From the IMG/VR virus record IMGVR_UViG_3300025645_000294, positions 1 through 31,144 of that record: DNA of 31,144 bases; one strand, given 5' to 3'. Under the pieces are notes generated by a model. The model had not been told where the DNA came from. It did not search any database and was given only the letters and a program-made list of their open reading frames with translations. Each line of letters opens with the position of its first letter. The first letter of the stretch is position 1. Source of the DNA: a virus. Shown one piece after another: positions 7,158 through 30,983 of this stretch. The translations under genes and the position numbers were made by a program.

Positions 7158-8867
7158 TTAGCGTCTAGCCGCTGTAGTGAATTCTAATTGGAAACCCTTG
7201 AGCGAGTAAGGGATCGATACGCCTGAGTCAATAACACGTAGCGCTACTGAGAAGCCTGAACCTTCAACTGGCTGTCTGACGAGAGGGTCTGTCTGACCAC
7301 CGTAGGTTGCCACTCCGTAAACACTAGTGCCATACAAAGCTACAACCTTGGTAGAGTCGAAAGGATAGGCTGCAGGTCGTGGTGAGTTAGCTGACTCGTA
7401 GTCGTAACGAAGGAATAGGTCAGTGTTGATAGCACCCTCTGGAGCGTAGTTAATGATTACACGCTGGAATGCTTTACGGATACCTGGGTCACCAGCTGTG
7501 ATGTCAGGGCTACGGTAGCGACCAATGATAGTTGTACCATCAAACGTATTACCTTGCTCAGCACGGTAGACGTAGCCGTGGAAGTCACCCATAATCACGT
7601 AGTACTCACCCTGGTACTCCTCCGTATCACTGCAGTAAGGCTTAATGGCCTTTGTTGTAGCGAACTCGTAGGACTGCTCTGTGCGAGTACAGATAACACC
7701 TTGAGTGGTACTGGTGTCAACGTCCGTGGAGCTAAAGAAGATACGGTACTGAGTCTTGTTAGGGATAACTAAAGCATCAAACTCATCTACGTCACTCCTA
7801 TCTTGGAATACCTCTTGGATTGGCTTAGAGATTGTACCTAACTCAACGTCACCAATCTTGTCTGTACCAGCAATAGTACGTAGACCGTCTGGACCAAGGA
7901 ATACAACATCACCCGCAAACTCCTTGATAGTCCAGCCGTTACGGCAACCAATCTCACGAGTAATAGGCTGCAGTGTGAAGTCAGCTTGTGAAGAACCTGT
8001 AAGCTTGTATATACGGTTAGCTGAGAAGATGTACAAGCTATCACGGAATACAATCATACCTGTTACAGCTGAGTCAACTACAAAGCTACCAGCACCGTTA
8101 GCTACTGAGAAGTCATCTAAGGTAAGAGGAGCTGTGTAGATAATCTCTTGTGGGTTAGATGACATTCCTGCATAGAAACCAGTATTCTTGAACACTGAGA
8201 TATAGTGAGGATCAGCTGGAGCATTAGTTCCGTTTACATCAGTAACAGAAGTACCATCCCAGTAAGAAGCGTTGTTAGCTCCGTCAGCAAAGGCAAGCAG
8301 CTCAGTACCGTTGAAGTTGATACGACGGAAGGTGTACTTCATAGCCCCTGTACGGCCAGAGTCCACAACAGTCCAAGTCTGGTATACTGCTGCAGCGTCT
8401 AAGTGAGCTACTGCTGTAGTACCGTTAGCACCTCGTGTACAGCCAGTGAAGGTAGTTGTAGTTAAGCCTGTGTACGTGATCTGCTCAGAACCAATAATAA
8501 TAGTACCTGTAACAGTGAATCCAGTTGTGCTTGCTACAGTAACTGTGGTAGCTACATCTGATAGTGCACCACTAAGTTCATTGATTGAATCAGTAGAACG
8601 GTAGATAGCTGTACCACGGGCAGCAATGACTTCACCTTGGTAGAAGGCTGACATCAGTACTGGCTCAGTAGGAGCTGTAGTAAAGGGTACGACCTCAGAT
8701 GCCCACTTCTCGTGACCATTGATACGACGGTACCCACCAGCTGTGTCTGGTTCGAAGTTCTCTAGCTCAAGGGCCATCCCTGGTTGTACAGAGAAGTTAG
8801 ACTTGTTTAGAACAAGACCACCTTGTAGAGGAAAGATAAAGGGGCTCAGGCCACTTGTGTCTGCCAT
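7158..8867 (-). CDS. Tail (stabilization/tubular) protein, P22 gp10/T7 gp12-like
   Basis: At 569 residues, it starts MADTSGLSPFIFPLQGGLVL and has LENFEPDTAGGYRRINGHEKW, the opening typical of podovirus tail stabilization or nozzle proteins that build the short tail below the portal. Later segments (FVVDSAVTGMIVFRDSLYIF, GCRNGWTIKEFAGDVVFLGP) fit the beta-propeller-like body. Residues about 99-163 look like an inserted small beta domain (GSEQITYTGL, FTGCTRGANGTTAVAH), a module also found in unrelated phage tail proteins. The gene follows the adaptor gene directly, in the order adaptor, tail protein, fibres. Assigned by pattern; structure comparison is not available here. Confidence 0.8.
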   Translation of the reverse strand: MADTSGLSPFIFPLQGGLVLNKSNFSVQPGMALELENFEPDTAGGYRRINGHEKWASEVVPFTTAPTEPVLMSAFYQGEVIAARGTAIYRSTDSINELSGALSDVATTVTVASTTGFTVTGTIIIGSEQITYTGLTTTTFTGCTRGANGTTAVAHLDAAAVYQTWTVVDSGRTGAMKYTFRRINFNGTELLAFADGANNASYWDGTSVTDVNGTNAPADPHYISVFKNTGFYAGMSSNPQEIIYTAPLTLDDFSVANGAGSFVVDSAVTGMIVFRDSLYIFSANRIYKLTGSSQADFTLQPITREIGCRNGWTIKEFAGDVVFLGPDGLRTIAGTDKIGDVELGTISKPIQEVFQDRSDVDEFDALVIPNKTQYRIFFSSTDVDTSTTQGVICTRTEQSYEFATTKAIKPYCSDTEEYQGEYYVIMGDFHGYVYRAEQGNTFDGTTIIGRYRSPDITAGDPGIRKAFQRVIINYAPEGAINTDLFLRYDYESANSPRPAAYPFDSTKVVALYGTSVYGVATYGGQTDPLVRQPVEGSGFSVALRVIDSGVSIPYSLKGFQLEFTTAARR

Positions 8868-24855: not shown

Positions 24856-24933
24856 ATGGGTGCTGCCCTCCTACTTATCATATCAACGGCCGTGATGGCC
24901 TATCTCATATACAAGGACGAAAGCAATGGGTGA
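24856..24933 (+). CDS. Single-pass membrane micro-protein (25 aa)
   Basis: MGAALLLIISTAVMAYLIYK plus DESNG: one membrane segment with a short charged end. GGAAGGG precedes the start. Its end, KDESNG, and the next gene's start are encoded together, as also at the end of that gene (see the 17-base repeat). The size suggests a regulatory or envelope peptide. Confidence 0.6.
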   Translation: MGAALLLIISTAVMAYLIYKDESNG

Positions 24934-25323
24934 AGTATATCTTGAAAAGGTGGTGTTTGCCATCGATGACAATTGGAATGTCCATACCGTCGCCAAGTTC
25001 TTGCGACACGTGGACACCTTGCGTGCCATGGGAAAGATCAAGCCTGTGGTGCAATGCATCGGGAACTGGGAAGGCGTTCTGGAGGTCTCTTACATGATGG
25101 ACCTCAAGGAATTCGACAAGCATGTAGTCCCATACGGCTTTGTGGAGGGGCAGGAGGCCGTCCTAGTGGTGGCAGGTGATACACGCCAACCTTGCCATAT
25201 CCGCTTCCCTACCGGTCACACAGTGAGCGTGGGGCCTATGGTGGAAATTGACGGGCCTATAGGTAACTGGACGTATGTTCCAGCCACAAACAAATACTTC
25301 ACATGTAAGGACGAAAGCAATGG
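24913..25323 (+). repeat. 17-base direct repeat at two gene junctions
   Basis: AAGGACGAAAGCAATGG occurs at 24913-24929 and 25307-25323. In each place it encodes the KDESNG end of one gene, holds the ribosome site (AAGGA) of the next, and includes its ATG. The span given is from the first copy to the second. Confidence 0.7.
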
Positions 25324-25327
25324 TTAA
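24926..25327 (+). CDS. Uncharacterised protein (133 aa)
   Basis: MGEVYLEKVVFAIDDNWNVH, then HVDTLRAMGKIKPVVQCIGN and a C-terminal part ending CKDESNG. Mixed alpha/beta, soluble, with two Cys. No family recognised. Its start overlaps the membrane micro-ORF and its end overlaps the next gene through the 17-base repeat, so translation is chained. Confidence 0.7.
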   Translation: MGEVYLEKVVFAIDDNWNVHTVAKFLRHVDTLRAMGKIKPVVQCIGNWEGVLEVSYMMDLKEFDKHVVPYGFVEGQEAVLVVAGDTRQPCHIRFPTGHTVSVGPMVEIDGPIGNWTYVPATNKYFTCKDESNG

Positions 25328-25891: not shown

Positions 25892-27397
25892 ATGGAAAAC
25901 GTTAGAGAACCAATCAAGGTGGGTGACTACCTGCAAGTGAAGCGCGGCTCAGTTACTGCGCACTGGTGTGAAGTCGTGGCTATATCACAGTGTGGTAGGC
26001 ACATCGTGTATACGGGCCAAGGCCTCTTGGATACGCACCTATTCTTTGAGCCAAGGCTGCGTGAGTATGCATCAGCTGGTGATGTATACGACATGGCTGG
26101 CTCAGTCTTTGATAGAAGTGGGATCAAGCCGTCCAAGTATGGCACAATTGATGAGGTGGCCGCTGTCCTGTTGCAAACAGCTATGACATCCTCTCACTCT
26201 CAGCCTTGGCGTCCTTTCGTCTCCTTCTTGGAAGGTAACTATTCAGGTGCTGGTATCCAGTATGATGGTCTATGTGAGGCCGATCGTGCCCTAGCTATAT
26301 TCAAGCCAGAAAAGGTGGAGGGTAGCTCAGCTATCAGTCTCTACCTTAACGCCAAGGACGCTAAGCGTGAGCGCCGTACAACAATGAAAGGTGGACGTGC
26401 GTTCAAGCACATGTTCAACCACCTGTCCGATAAGGAGATTGCCGCTTTAGCTGAGGCATGGATCGAGGAGAGTTCACCTCGTGAGTTCGTTCTCAAGGTA
26501 GGTGGTGAGCGTAAAGACTTTCGCAGGGCATACTGTGGTGTTCGTGCTAAGTATCGCAACCCAGCAACAACTAGCTACCGTAAGTCTCTTGCTACCTCAT
26601 GTATGCATACCACCAAAGTAGATGATGGTTGTGAGAACATGTCACCAGCTGAGGTGTATGCATCAGGTGACTTCAAGGTTGCTTGGCTAGAGACGCTGGA
26701 AGGCCACATAGCGGCCCGTGTTGTGTTCTCAGCTAGGGTAGACACCCAGTCGTACCATGCACCCATCTACGGAGCCTGTGAGCAATCCTTAGACATGCTT
26801 GACACCTACTTGCAGGATAACAAGGTAGAACTGTCCTCTGACTTAGGTGAGTGGCATAGCCTCAAGCTTCTGAACATAGAGTCGAATGGTCGCACCGTTG
26901 GCCCATACATGGATGGATGCATCAGGGGTAACGTTAGCGGTGACCATATCGTTCTGTCACACAGTGGAGACCTTGACTTTGACTCCACTGATGGTTACGC
27001 TAGTGATGGTGAGATGTGTGCTCACTGCGGTGATAGTGTTCATGAGGATGAGCTATACCATACTGACGATGGTGGCCTTTGCGAGCACTGCTTCAATGAG
27101 AACTTCGCTTACACTGAGGGTGGTGACGTTATCCCAGCTGAGAATGCTGTCTATGCTCTGAATCGTAGCTCATGGAATGGTAACTGCTACGAGATCTGCG
27201 TTCACATTGATGATGCTGTATTCTGTGAAGACCTTGACCAGTATTGGGTTGAAGAAGATGTTACTTACTCTGAGTGTGGTGACTATGCTATCCCTACCCA
27301 CCTCATGAAGGACTACCCTGCGTATTTCCCTAGTGAGTTCGGGGAAGATGATGATGAAACAACTAACAACAACAACATAGAGGAGGAAGCAGCATGA
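25892..27397 (+). CDS. Large unknown protein with zinc-ribbon-like CxxC pair (501 aa)
   Basis: The N-terminal 60 residues resemble a small beta domain (KVGDYLQVKRGSVTAHWCEV). Residues about 165-300 are a conserved phage block (GRAFKHMFNHLSDKEIAALA; RKSLATSCMHTTK; EVYASGDFKVAWLE; PIYGACEQSLD) seen in other phages without a known function. At 376-400 CAHC and CEHC are 17 residues apart, a zinc-ribbon-like or LIM-like site, with Cys432, 436, 445 and 462 after it. The C terminus is acidic and Asn-rich. It is translationally coupled to the peptidase gene (overlap 27394-27397). RNA or DNA binding is possible; function unknown. Confidence 0.72.
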   Translation: MENVREPIKVGDYLQVKRGSVTAHWCEVVAISQCGRHIVYTGQGLLDTHLFFEPRLREYASAGDVYDMAGSVFDRSGIKPSKYGTIDEVAAVLLQTAMTSSHSQPWRPFVSFLEGNYSGAGIQYDGLCEADRALAIFKPEKVEGSSAISLYLNAKDAKRERRTTMKGGRAFKHMFNHLSDKEIAALAEAWIEESSPREFVLKVGGERKDFRRAYCGVRAKYRNPATTSYRKSLATSCMHTTKVDDGCENMSPAEVYASGDFKVAWLETLEGHIAARVVFSARVDTQSYHAPIYGACEQSLDMLDTYLQDNKVELSSDLGEWHSLKLLNIESNGRTVGPYMDGCIRGNVSGDHIVLSHSGDLDFDSTDGYASDGEMCAHCGDSVHEDELYHTDDGGLCEHCFNENFAYTEGGDVIPAENAVYALNRSSWNGNCYEICVHIDDAVFCEDLDQYWVEEDVTYSECGDYAIPTHLMKDYPAYFPSEFGEDDDETTNNNNIEEEAA

Positions 27398-28359
27398 GTA
27401 ACGTAACAAGACACACGCTGATAAACCTACTGCAAACCATGCGTCCAGCCTACTCGCTGACTGAACGTAGGTTCTGTGAGACTTACCTTGAACCTACATT
27501 CGGTAAGCCTGACGCACATGGTAACTATATCTTGAGTGTAGGCAACAACCCAACGATTGCCTTCACTGCCCATACCGACACTGTCCACCGCACTGAGGGT
27601 GTTCAGACCCTATCCGTGGAGAACAACTTTGTTACTTCTATGACGGGTAGTTGCTTGGGTGCTGATTGTACTACAGGCCTTTGGTTACTCTTAGGAATGA
27701 TCGAAGCGGGTATCGAAGGTGTCTACATTGCCCATGCCGCCGAGGAAATCGGTGGGGTCGGTAGCTCCAAACTGGTAGAGGACAACCCTGCTTGGCTCTC
27801 TAATATCCAAGTATGCTTGTCTTTCGATAGGTTCGGCACCAACAGTGTCATCACCCACCAAGGTGGTAGGCGGACAGCTAGTGACGACTTTGCGGAATCC
27901 CTCGCGGATATCCTTGGGATGCCACAGCTTAAACCCGACACGACAGGGACCTACACAGACAGCATGGAGTATGCTGGTATCGTGCCTGAGTGTAGCAATC
28001 TCAGTGTCGGATACTACGATCAGCACACGTCTAAGGAGTCACAGGACATACTCTACGCTGAAACACTGCTTGAGAGGCTCTGTAAGGCCGACTGGAGCGC
28101 CTTGGTGGTTTCTCGTGACCATACCCAGCCTATAACGTATGACGACGCTCTACGGTCCTCTTATCAAGATGCCTCTGATGAGGTGAATGAGGAGGACATA
28201 GACGCCATTACAGCTCTACTCCTTGACAGGCCACGCCTGATAGCCGAGCTTCTATATGATTACGGCTTGACTATCGACGTGCTGGCTGACGAGCTAAAGC
28301 TTGACTACTCAGATATGAGATATTATACTGATGAACACTCAGCTAAGTCTTATTATTAA
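27394..28359 (+). CDS. M28/M20-type metallopeptidase (321 aa)
   Basis: All metal-site positions of co-catalytic zinc peptidases are visible in order: AHTDT (His60, Asp62), ADCTTG (Asp91, bridging), AAEEIGG (Glu117 base, Glu118 ligand), LSFDRFG (Asp144) and YYDQHTSKE (His210), with TDSMEYAGIVPECSNLSVG before it as in M28/M42 peptidases. About 220 residues form the catalytic part and 100 C-terminal residues are unknown. An aminopeptidase, deacetylase or carboxypeptidase role is likely; the substrate is not known. GAGGAGG precedes the start. Confidence 0.78.
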   Translation: MSNVTRHTLINLLQTMRPAYSLTERRFCETYLEPTFGKPDAHGNYILSVGNNPTIAFTAHTDTVHRTEGVQTLSVENNFVTSMTGSCLGADCTTGLWLLLGMIEAGIEGVYIAHAAEEIGGVGSSKLVEDNPAWLSNIQVCLSFDRFGTNSVITHQGGRRTASDDFAESLADILGMPQLKPDTTGTYTDSMEYAGIVPECSNLSVGYYDQHTSKESQDILYAETLLERLCKADWSALVVSRDHTQPITYDDALRSSYQDASDEVNEEDIDAITALLLDRPRLIAELLYDYGLTIDVLADELKLDYSDMRYYTDEHSAKSYY

Positions 28360-28591: not shown

Positions 28592-28621
28592 TTGACAAGG
28601 TGCCTAACTGTTTGTTATACT
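28592..28621 (+). promoter_or_regulatory. Rightward sigma70-type promoter
   Basis: TTGACA (28592-28597), 18 bases, TATACT (28616-28621), with TGT before the -10. Predicted start near 28628. About 105 bases of leader then run to the ATG at 28735 through the two TACTTTAAGT copies. It serves the genes from 28735 on. Confidence 0.7.
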
Positions 28622-29047: not shown

Positions 29048-29227
29048 ATGTTTATAACACTTGACACAGCTCTACCAGTCATCACGTTACTTATCGTAGC
29101 ATATCAGTCATATAAGCTGTATGAGCTAGACAAGGACATGGATGACCTAGTAGACAAGCACAACGACTTCGTGGAGAGTGTAGCCACTGTCTTCGACGCC
29201 ATCATTGAACAAACACCAGAGGAATAA
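29048..29227 (+). CDS. Membrane-anchored small protein (59 aa)
   Basis: MFITLDTALPVITLLIVAYQ is an N-terminal membrane segment; SYKLYELDKDMDDLVDKHND starts a charged helix. A type II-like small membrane protein with a cytoplasmic or periplasmic coil. It precedes the secreted collagen-like gene directly. Confidence 0.62.
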   Translation: MFITLDTALPVITLLIVAYQSYKLYELDKDMDDLVDKHNDFVESVATVFDAIIEQTPEE

Positions 29228-29231
29228 CACC

Positions 29232-29864
29232 ATGAAAACCATCATCACAACAACCGCAATCATCCTGCTAATGACTACAGCAGCAACAGCAAGCCCTAAG
29301 ACTTGCCCAGTTAAGACAAACACAAGCGGCGTACAGATCATCAAGAATGGCTGCGCTGCCTTTGTAGGTGGCACAGGCGCTACAGGCCCTCAGGGGCCCC
29401 AAGGAGAGCAAGGTCCACAAGGTGAGCAAGGGGTATCAGGTAATGACGGACAAGACGGCGCACAGGGCCTTACAGGGGCTAATGGAACAAACGGAACGGA
29501 TGGAACAGATGGACAAGACGGGACCAACGGTACTAACGGTGTTGATGGTATTAATGGCACAGATGGGGCTAATGGCTCTGACGGTTCTGCTGGTCGTGAC
29601 GGTGTAGATGGTGCTGACGGAGACAAGGGAGACACTGGTAAGGATGCTGTAGCACCACTAGGCTCACTATCCTTTGCAGCAGCTAGTGCAACCTTATACG
29701 GGGATGGTATCGGCTTTGGTCTATCTAACTCTAACTACGGTAGCCTTGAAGGTTCTATCGTGGTAGGCTTCGACCTTGATAACGACTGGCGCTTGGTGGG
29801 TGGTATCACTACAGACTTCAACGGTAAGACTGCGGTATCTGTCGGCCTCGGCTACAACTTCTAA
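29232..29864 (+). CDS. Secreted collagen-like protein with autotransporter-like C terminus (210 aa)
   Basis: Residues 1-20 are a Sec signal with an ATA-S cleavage site. After a short linker with Cys25 and Cys41, residues 46-138 are 31 uninterrupted Gly-X-Y triplets (GPQGPQGEQ at the start, then GTN, GTD and GVD types rich in Asn and Asp). Residues about 145-210 form a series of beta strands ending GLGYNF, with a C-terminal Phe as in outer-membrane beta proteins. The order signal, stalk, short beta anchor is that of trimeric autotransporters; the collagen stalk also needs trimers. The ATG at 29232 with GAGGAA is preferred over 29205. A surface role, such as superinfection exclusion, is inferred. 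Confidence 0.78.
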   Translation: MKTIITTTAIILLMTTAATASPKTCPVKTNTSGVQIIKNGCAAFVGGTGATGPQGPQGEQGPQGEQGVSGNDGQDGAQGLTGANGTNGTDGTDGQDGTNGTNGVDGINGTDGANGSDGSAGRDGVDGADGDKGDTGKDAVAPLGSLSFAAASATLYGDGIGFGLSNSNYGSLEGSIVVGFDLDNDWRLVGGITTDFNGKTAVSVGLGYNF

Positions 29865-30126: not shown

Positions 30127-30324
30127 ATGACTAAGGAAACACAAGCACAGATCGACTCACTACTCCGAATGATTGCACTGAACCAAGGACGAGTAGACAG
30201 CCTGATCGAAGAGCATGGTCATGGGTGTCGCCCCTCCTACGTTAGTGAGGAGCTATGTCACTACGGGGAACGAGTGGAACGTTACAAGGCTGAGCTCAAA
30301 GAACTACAAGGGGAACCTAAATGA
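30127..30324 (+). CDS. Small helical protein (65 aa)
   Basis: MTKETQAQIDSLLRMIALNQ and ERVERYKAELKELQGEPK: two amphipathic helices with a His/Cys-containing middle (HGHGCRPSYVSEELCHYG). TAGGAG is upstream. The stop overlaps the ThyX start (ATGA), so coupling is likely. Confidence 0.7.
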   Translation: MTKETQAQIDSLLRMIALNQGRVDSLIEEHGHGCRPSYVSEELCHYGERVERYKAELKELQGEPK

Positions 30325-30983
30325 CTAACCAGATAACAGCAACTTACATCGACCACTGCGGATCGGACCTATCAACTGTCAACGCAGCACGGGTTAGCTT
30401 CGGTAAGAGCAGCCATTTTGAAGGACGGGTAGGTGGCCCTAACGTACTGTCAGACAGAGACACTAAGCTAATCAACTACCTAGCCAAGCACAAGCACCTA
30501 TCACCCTTCGGGCATGCCTTCTCATCCTTCCACGTCAAGGCTCCTATCTTCGTAGCACGTCAACTAGTCAAACACCAATACCTACGTTGGAATGAGATCA
30601 GTCGTCGGTACGTTGATGATGAACCAGAGTTCTATGTACCAGAGGTATGGCGTGGACGAGCAGAAAACGTGAAGCAAGGTAGTTCTGGGACAGTTAAGTT
30701 ACCTGCTGACTTAGTTGGAAATATGGCAAAGTCAGCTAAAGAGGATTACCAATATTTACTGGACATAGGTATTTGTCCTGAGCAGGCACGTATGGTACTG
30801 CCACAGTCTACAATGACTGAGTGGTACTGGTCAGGTAGCCTTGATGCCTTCGCTAACATGTGCCGACTTCGTTGTGCTACAGATACACAAGCAGAGACAC
30901 GGTTAGTTGCAGATGACATTAGCAAGAAGATGTCTGAACTATTCCCTGTGTCGTGGGCCGCTTTAATGGTCTGTAGATCATAA
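30321..30983 (+). CDS. thyX: Flavin-dependent thymidylate synthase ThyX (220 aa)
   Basis: Makes dTMP from dUMP using FAD and methylenetetrahydrofolate. FVARQLVKHQYLRWNEISRRY (residues 77-97, quoted in two parts: FVARQLVKHQ, YLRWNEISRRY) is the ThyX core, with K-H-Q in place of the common RHR triad, as in several phage ThyX. ICPEQARMVLPQS and SLDAFANMCRLRCATDTQAE (residues 173-192) are family segments. Length fits. It may supply thymidine for phage DNA in hosts that use either ThyA or ThyX. Confidence 0.93.
   Translation: MTNQITATYIDHCGSDLSTVNAARVSFGKSSHFEGRVGGPNVLSDRDTKLINYLAKHKHLSPFGHAFSSFHVKAPIFVARQLVKHQYLRWNEISRRYVDDEPEFYVPEVWRGRAENVKQGSSGTVKLPADLVGNMAKSAKEDYQYLLDIGICPEQARMVLPQSTMTEWYWSGSLDAFANMCRLRCATDTQAETRLVADDISKKMSELFPVSWAALMVCRS

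Follow-up and report, generated by a model that had tools for sequence, protein, structure and literature searches.

Phage homologues of the trimeric autotransporter (TAA) YadA had been reported as agglutinating adhesins by 2013, in a paper whose pertinent passages place the yadA genes of phages SP-058 and SP-076 seemingly away from tail genes (PMC3728262) and in which a word search does not find 'collagen'. A YadA-anchor-like ORF also lies within a deletable region of a T4-like phage, according to part of another report (PMC5449768). Other accounts connect such domains with the particle: a passage on pelagimyophages lists collagen and YadA domains side by side in structural operons (PMC7029224), and a section on a cyanophage gives a 'YadA domain-containing structural protein' as detected in virions by LC-MS (PMC9146016). 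Several public records name YadA-type phage proteins tail or tail fibre. In the portions of the literature searched, we found no description of a phage protein that combines collagen with a YadA anchor, and no remark on the recurrence of collagen-stalked, YadA-anchored proteins across phages, E. coli-grown ones included. Word searches found 'collagen', 'adhesin' and 'YadA' absent from PMC9965538 and from a study of particles of kuravirus SU10, which may lack the gene (PMC9509320), and 'collagen' and 'YadA' absent from PMC10386132; PMC7881722, PMC8217332 and PMC6563267 held nothing of use.

The build itself can be found in sequence records. The 'agglutinating adhesin' gp119 of phiEco32, read from an internal Met (a start reading made here), has a signal, a Cys pair, a collagen repeat (36.1 bits) and a YadA_anchor domain (68.7 bits). 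Its gene is in the leftward block of a genome in which, as outlined in part of PMC8948821, the late structural genes point rightward, with the early and middle genes on the opposite strand. The four such proteins that were scanned (phiEco32, SP-076, Munch and PCSE1) all score above the Pfam cut-offs for both collagen and YadA_anchor. The yadA-type genes of Salmonella phages FSL SP-076 and SP-058 adjoin a dUTPase gene, and that of PCSE1 points in the opposite direction to the capsid genes beside it. We inspected 13 phage YadA-type proteins, gp119 and 12 others picked for variety among the best 60 of 84 records; six carry collagen runs of 21-44 triplets and seven do not, which is no frequency, since the set was chosen by hand. 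The original prediction had supposed more novelty than this leaves, given that phage YadA homologues were published by 2013 and that 6 of the 13 are collagen-stalked. The class of phage agglutinating adhesins with signal, collagen and YadA anchor is itself not new; what is new is the present version, minimal and strongly diverged, with ties to marine phages and a history of shuffling among unrelated ones.

That version is encoded at 29232..29864 (+, stop included; 210 aa) of the window, by which we mean the whole 31-kb virus record analysed. The sequence AGAGGA, at 29218-29223, lies 8 bases 5' of the ATG. Four parts can be told apart, all on the + strand: a Sec-type signal peptide (residues 1-20, 29232..29291) with a predicted cut at A20|S21, a short mature N-terminal tip (residues 21-45, 29292..29366) with Cys25 and Cys41, a collagen stalk (residues 46-138, 29367..29645), and a C-terminal anchor-like domain (residues 139-210, 29646..29861), hereafter the C-domain. 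The original prediction placed and described the ORF exactly as we read it, with an uninterrupted run of 31 Gly-X-Y triplets and a beta-rich end finishing in Phe; only its figure of 65 residues for that end needed correction, the true length after the collagen being 72.

The collagen repeat is not a chance product. The triplets number exactly 31, without interruption; runs in the other window reading frames of at least 50 residues reach four triplets at most, and runs in 20,000 shuffled versions of the protein nine. Pfam Collagen (PF01391) scores 56.8 bits against a gathering cut-off of 27.2. A collagen triple helix rises 0.286 nm per residue, and the stalk would thus be about 27 nm long if triple-helical. 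The tip cysteines, which may be joined by a disulphide at the rod's distal end, are paired in five of the six distinct family proteins, the exception being L087. Matches of the whole protein to PHROGs and NCBIfam were set aside as due to the collagen repeat; the C-domains alone have no PHROGs match.

The signal peptide was judged by crude criteria of our own (a K at position 2, a hydrophobic core and A-x-A, here ending at A20), which the protein passes, as the original prediction of a Sec signal would have it. A strict A-x-A signal is present in 6/6 distinct family proteins that have their N-terminus (the window, L004, L005, L006, L084 and L087). The background was 152 coding sequences, the annotated rightward genes from the non-structural blocks of six related phages, excluding one very short gene and genes cut by the ends of the stretches used; among them no sequence passes strictly and two pass loosely. 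None of 12 other ORFs of the window's own rightward block pass. Twelve of the 13 phage YadA-type proteins also pass, nine strictly (the strict rule here also allowing V at -3), with phiEco32 and Bas90 passing only from an internal start and with the start of the Aeromonas D6 protein cut off. These counts bear on a different account of the gene, in which the product is a virion appendage: the collagen would be a fibre, the beta-rich end a trimerising knob and the N-terminal hydrophobic stretch an attachment segment. The 6/6 strict signals in the family, against 0 of 152 in the background, argue for export and against an attachment segment.

The C-domain was modelled with AlphaFold2 as a single chain from a five-sequence alignment. 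The best model (pLDDT 78, pTM 0.65; the other four have pLDDT 69-70) contains a helix at 8-15 and strands at 22-29, 35-45, 49-58 and 63-71 in domain numbering, that is, a predicted helix at residues 145-152 (29664..29687) ahead of four predicted strands at residues 159-166, 172-182, 186-195 and 200-208 (29706..29855). The first strand, of eight residues, is short for a membrane strand. Foldseek ranked 3emo, 2gr7, 2gr8, 9vnj and 2lme first to fifth among 350,542 PDB chains, and these are TAA anchors only: Hia (three entries), AtaA and YadA (probability 0.98-1.00, TMq 0.56-0.65, E 7.6e-3 to 0.18). The best E is 7.6e-3, none falling below 0.001. VIA-align gave Z of 7.9-7.0 for the same five anchors against 5.8 for the next chain; the tool rates Z below 8 as middling, and such values are weak taken alone, but the set of anchors matched by the model is specific. 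In a fold search of BFVD, nine of the 12 named matches in ranks 1-19 are phage YadA-like proteins or agglutinating adhesins. The four-stranded, TAA-type anchor per chain proposed from the letters alone therefore agrees with the predicted monomer fold in all three analyses, and an anchor-type fold speaks against the trimerising knob of a virion fibre.

The modelled strands also have the residue pattern that a narrow membrane barrel would need. With strand limits taken from the AlphaFold2 model, large hydrophobic residues fill 16 of the 21 odd positions against 2 of the 19 even; 13 of those 19 hold Gly, Ser, Ala, Thr or Asn. An alternation as good arose in 3 of 20,000 shuffles of the window sequence, and in 14, 7, 1 and 1 of 20,000 for other family members. 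The protein ends in AVSVGLGYNF (29832..29861), which we take to be a BAM-type terminal signal.

The link to YadA anchors at the level of sequence is faint. Pfam YadA_anchor (PF03895) has one match in the window, at 29784..29861 (+), which reaches the last residue of the protein and the last position of the profile and scores 11.7 bits against a cut-off of 22.7; scores where the family is matched run from 11.7 to 15.1 bits and never reach the cut-off. There is no match in L004, in the broken copy in L006 or in Synechococcus virus S-ESS1. In all, the profile matches 6 of 15 phage records, always at the end of the collagen gene, and none of six isolates of the HMO-2011 type; the control genomes, which are far larger, are not free of weak matches either (E up to 1; 6 of 14, archaea included). 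Against single family members it matches three of five (best E 0.025). As to a possible common descent of the anchors, an hhalign comparison of the family C-domain with the 13 phage YadA anchors gave P 0.0016 and a probability of 16%; its score of 20.61 was not equalled in 200 column-shuffled controls, the best of which came close at 20.02. A tblastn search with the C-domain matched no phage anchor of the gp119 type, and the A2 profile found no credible chain among PDB sequences (two matches, best E 0.51). Because the window anchor falls below the gathering score, we do not file it as a PF03895 member.

Compared with known systems, the protein follows the gp119-type order of signal, collagen and YadA-type anchor, the last as judged from the modelled fold. 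Like gp119 and its kin in Bas90, FSL SP-076, SP-058, Munch and PCSE1, it has a signal, a collagen run (21 to 44 triplets in those six) and a YadA-type end, and like four of the six it has a Cys pair before the collagen; those proteins end in Trp, whereas the window protein ends in Phe. In phiEco32 about 50 residues, by eye partly coiled coil, separate the collagen from the Pfam anchor, whereas in the window the anchor follows the collagen directly and is too diverged for Pfam, in a phage related to marine phages. With the TAAs (YadA, Hia, AtaA) it has in common a C-terminal helix and four strands, a Sec signal and a rod that would project outward. It differs in being phage-encoded and below the PF03895 cut-off, in having a collagen rod, and in lacking a head and room for a coiled coil: in place of the head and coiled-coil stalk that are usual in TAAs, if not defining, there are 25 residues and the collagen. 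The protein is neither a PF03895 member by curated score nor a classical TAA, yet by its build it would work like one.

The bacterial proteins Scl1/Scl2 and Lcl also have collagen rods, on anchors of other kinds; all three NCBIfam models match the window protein through its collagen, far below their cut-offs. A further phage protein, ARB05735.1 of S-ESS1, has a signal, a Cys pair and nine collagen triplets, and ranks 18 in the BFVD search with the window C-domain model (probability 0.92); it differs in having neither a YadA match nor a terminal aromatic residue. Its gene (L103:38662-39168, -) shares a leftward block with genes for a methyltransferase, a dihydrofolate reductase and ThyX; the product, which has a non-collagen end, is called a collagen repeat protein in one record and a tail fibre in the RefSeq copy. 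A single-sequence AlphaFold2 model of it (pLDDT 41) was too poor for a fold search.

The window is probably a fragment of a roseophage of the HMO-2011 type. Its large terminase is closest to phages of that type (best CRP-13, 73.6% identity), and since the complete records with terminase matches are about 53-56 kb long, a 31-kb record is probably incomplete. In CRP-13 the structural genes run leftward and a DNA-metabolism block with thyX runs rightward. The window has the same arrangement, with the terminase leftward and thyX (30321..30983, +; PF02511, 155.9 bits), our marker of the non-structural block, rightward; the collagen gene lies upstream of thyX, separated from it by two small genes. 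The placement of the gene in the rightward, non-structural block, as originally proposed, is borne out by the thyX in the same block and the terminase on the opposite strand. Virion collagen fibres are expected among the structural genes and on their strand; the window gene is away from them, its relative in L084 is opposite both portal and terminase genes, and the PCSE1 gene is opposite the capsid gene. For a place in the particle speak the tail families that make up 15 of the best 25 among 49 PHROGs matching the collagen part, the tail labels in public records and the cyanophage and pelagimyophage reports cited above. On account of the signal, the gene position and the fold we lower the virion fibre to an unlikely rival.

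Since the gene sits with DNA-metabolism rather than particle genes, the protein probably coats the infected cell. Decoration of the infected cell rather than the particle, the central proposal of the original prediction, is kept as the best reading because of the predicted anchor fold, the non-structural block and the YadA-anchored collagens of other phages. Specifically, we give a probability of about 0.7 to a minimal, collagen-stalked protein with a YadA-like anchor that stands, TAA-like, on the surface of the infected cell; surface display taken by itself is highly probable.

A consensus promoter scan found five sites in the stretch covered, where 2.8 were expected. One of them (28592..28621, +; 11/12 matches, TG before the second hexamer; consensus scan only), some 600 bases upstream of the collagen gene, may drive the series of small genes of which thyX is the last.

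Scanning IMG/VR for the C-domain yielded eight contigs: L002, L003, L004, L005, L006, L084, L085 and L087. The genes in L002 and L003 are identical to that of the window, and L085 is a fragment. In one of the scans nearly all of the best 80 of 279 relatives were similar in the collagen only, with 29 of the 80 inspected. No relative was found among the isolated phages or the bacterial species genomes searched, a point against the infected-cell reading, and 149 pattern matches in bacterial genome contigs included no relative. A Burkholderia plasmid match (E 5), in an ORF read by eye as pyruvate-oxidase-like, was taken as chance. The search for homologues in other phages that the original prediction had called for was thus productive, giving C-domain relatives in unrelated phage contigs and YadA-anchored collagens in others.

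The gene has different neighbours in different contigs. In L005 and L006, which we label T7-like, it comes after genes for a phage RNA polymerase and a DNA polymerase. In L084 it is between the portal and terminase genes; in L004 its neighbours are again on the opposite strand (one a PF20557 match, one with no assigned function), and three leftward ORFs look near-identical to ORFs flanking the L084 major head gene. In L087 the order is a ribonucleotide-reductase gene, one small gene, the collagen gene and then thyX. Among the contigs of unrelated phages, DNA similarity starts at most about 13 bases from the ORF start and stops a few tens of bases past the stop; the related pair L005 and L006 also have the polymerase gene in common, and L087 and the window have thyX in common as a separate stretch of similarity. 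The C-domains of L084 and L087 are 91% identical in DNA although the contigs are unlike, while the alignment of their tips is poor, scoring 34 where that of L084 and L006 scores 186, and the longest triplet run per family member ranges from 13 to 77. The anchor is under purifying selection, dN/dS being 0.08-0.19 in 10/10 pairs among five different intact proteins (not counting L006, L085, which is a fragment, or L002 and L003, which are identical to the window gene). As the contexts differ, the similarity is bounded by the ORF, the anchor is conserved and the tip and rod vary, it looks as if one gene passes from phage to phage, keeping its anchor and changing its tip and rod.

The same mobility could mean that the gene is a hitch-hiking cell gene, a moron acquired from other phages and of little use to the phage. 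It does occur alone in differing contexts with similarity stopping near the ORF, and one copy is broken: L006:8001-8530 has an in-frame stop and a 3' frameshift, from gene decay or assembly error. We consider this very unlikely in view of the low dN/dS, the 91% identity of the C-domain between such unlike contigs and the failure to find a close bacterial source in the genome contigs searched. Nor was a 'moron with its own promoter' shown, because consensus sites around the collagen gene occur at about the chance number (three against 2.1 expected in L084, one against 1.1 in L004). Terminator-like sites number none in L084 and three against 0.7 expected in L004, one of these at 8689-8708, on the strand of the gene and 170 bases past it. 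Phage_integrase matched none of eight records, which may be fragments, and an integrase is listed in four of six related isolates looked at.

If the infected-cell reading holds, the chain would be exported through the host Sec machinery, and three C-terminal domains, each of a helix and four strands, would close a 12-stranded barrel across the outer membrane of the host; both the trimer and its insertion are what we infer from the monomer fold. The three collagen segments would wind into the 27-nm rod with the small tip, often carrying a Cys pair, outward. Signal, collagen, monomer anchor fold, gene context, transfer and purifying selection come from computation; expression timing and function are conjectural. 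The most likely benefit of such a coat, through crowding or binding of surface receptors, would be that neither other phages nor the phage's own offspring attach to the infected cell or its debris. Exclusion or receptor masking is ranked first by analogy with phage proteins that stop adsorption to infected cells and debris, as treated in part of PMC9586334, and we hold it tentatively, at somewhat under even odds. T5 Llp, in the account given there, offers a parallel: the phage makes it, it sits at the infected cell's outer membrane, and the proposed benefit is the same; it differs in being a periplasmic lipoprotein that acts on one receptor by allostery, with a build unlike that of the window protein.

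Ranked a close second, though less likely than not, is a benefit from adhesion or aggregation: as an outer-membrane adhesin, the protein would make infected cells clump or stick to fresh hosts or surfaces, raising the hit rate of the progeny, or would alter grazing by protists. The closest solved anchors are those of adhesins, phage homologues with this architecture carry the annotation 'agglutinating adhesin', and a variable tip and rod on a conserved anchor is what varied targets would lead one to expect; against this, there is no head domain and only some 25 residues lie outside the rod and anchor. More broadly, and with the reserve due to a conjecture, many unrelated phage groups may have in common an unrecognised class of 'surface collagens', passed on as a single gene with swapped tips and rods on a conserved barrel anchor, that re-coat the host during infection against rival phages, progeny or predators.

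Should the infected-cell reading hold, the phage would dress a cell about to die in an extracellular-matrix-like protein, and one may ask what it gains from such remodelling of the surface. Because phiEco32 and Bas90, whose listed host is E. coli, carry proteins of the same build, the idea of host coating is directly testable. There is also a consequence for annotation: several public records give the products of these genes as tail or tail fibre proteins, and the Pfam anchor model misses the marine branch.

Some other features of these records deserve mention. Directly before the collagen gene, a 59-aa ORF (29048-29227, +) with, by eye, a hydrophobic stretch and then a charged tail stops four bases short of it; it has no Pfam match, and no homologue was reported among the other loci compared. 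At 27394-28359 (+) a 321-aa protein matches Peptidase_M28 (21.6 bits, cut-off 21.3), a zinc-peptidase-like enzyme within a phage non-structural block. The 133-aa product of 24926-25327 (+) is S-adenosylmethionine lyase-like (PF23780, 22.5 bits, cut-off 28), possibly an anti-restriction gene; its homologues are the genes directly after the collagen gene in L006 (S-AdoMet-lyase-like, 26.1 bits, same cut-off) and in L005 (a homologue of the L006 gene, with no Pfam match). PADLOC gave no match for the five proteins submitted. Two small enterobacterial plasmids, AP022423.1 and AP022232.1 (H126 and H128; 12.4 and 9.5 kb), code for YadA-type ends with 54.5% identity to that of phiEco32 over 57% of the query, and exchange between phages and plasmids may have occurred. 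Finally, a small protein with a QTFSAR motif is encoded at L087:7513-7716 and L006:9347-9553, with homologues of 50-60% identity in CRP-9, CRP-2 and CRP-603 and, somewhat lower in places, in L005.
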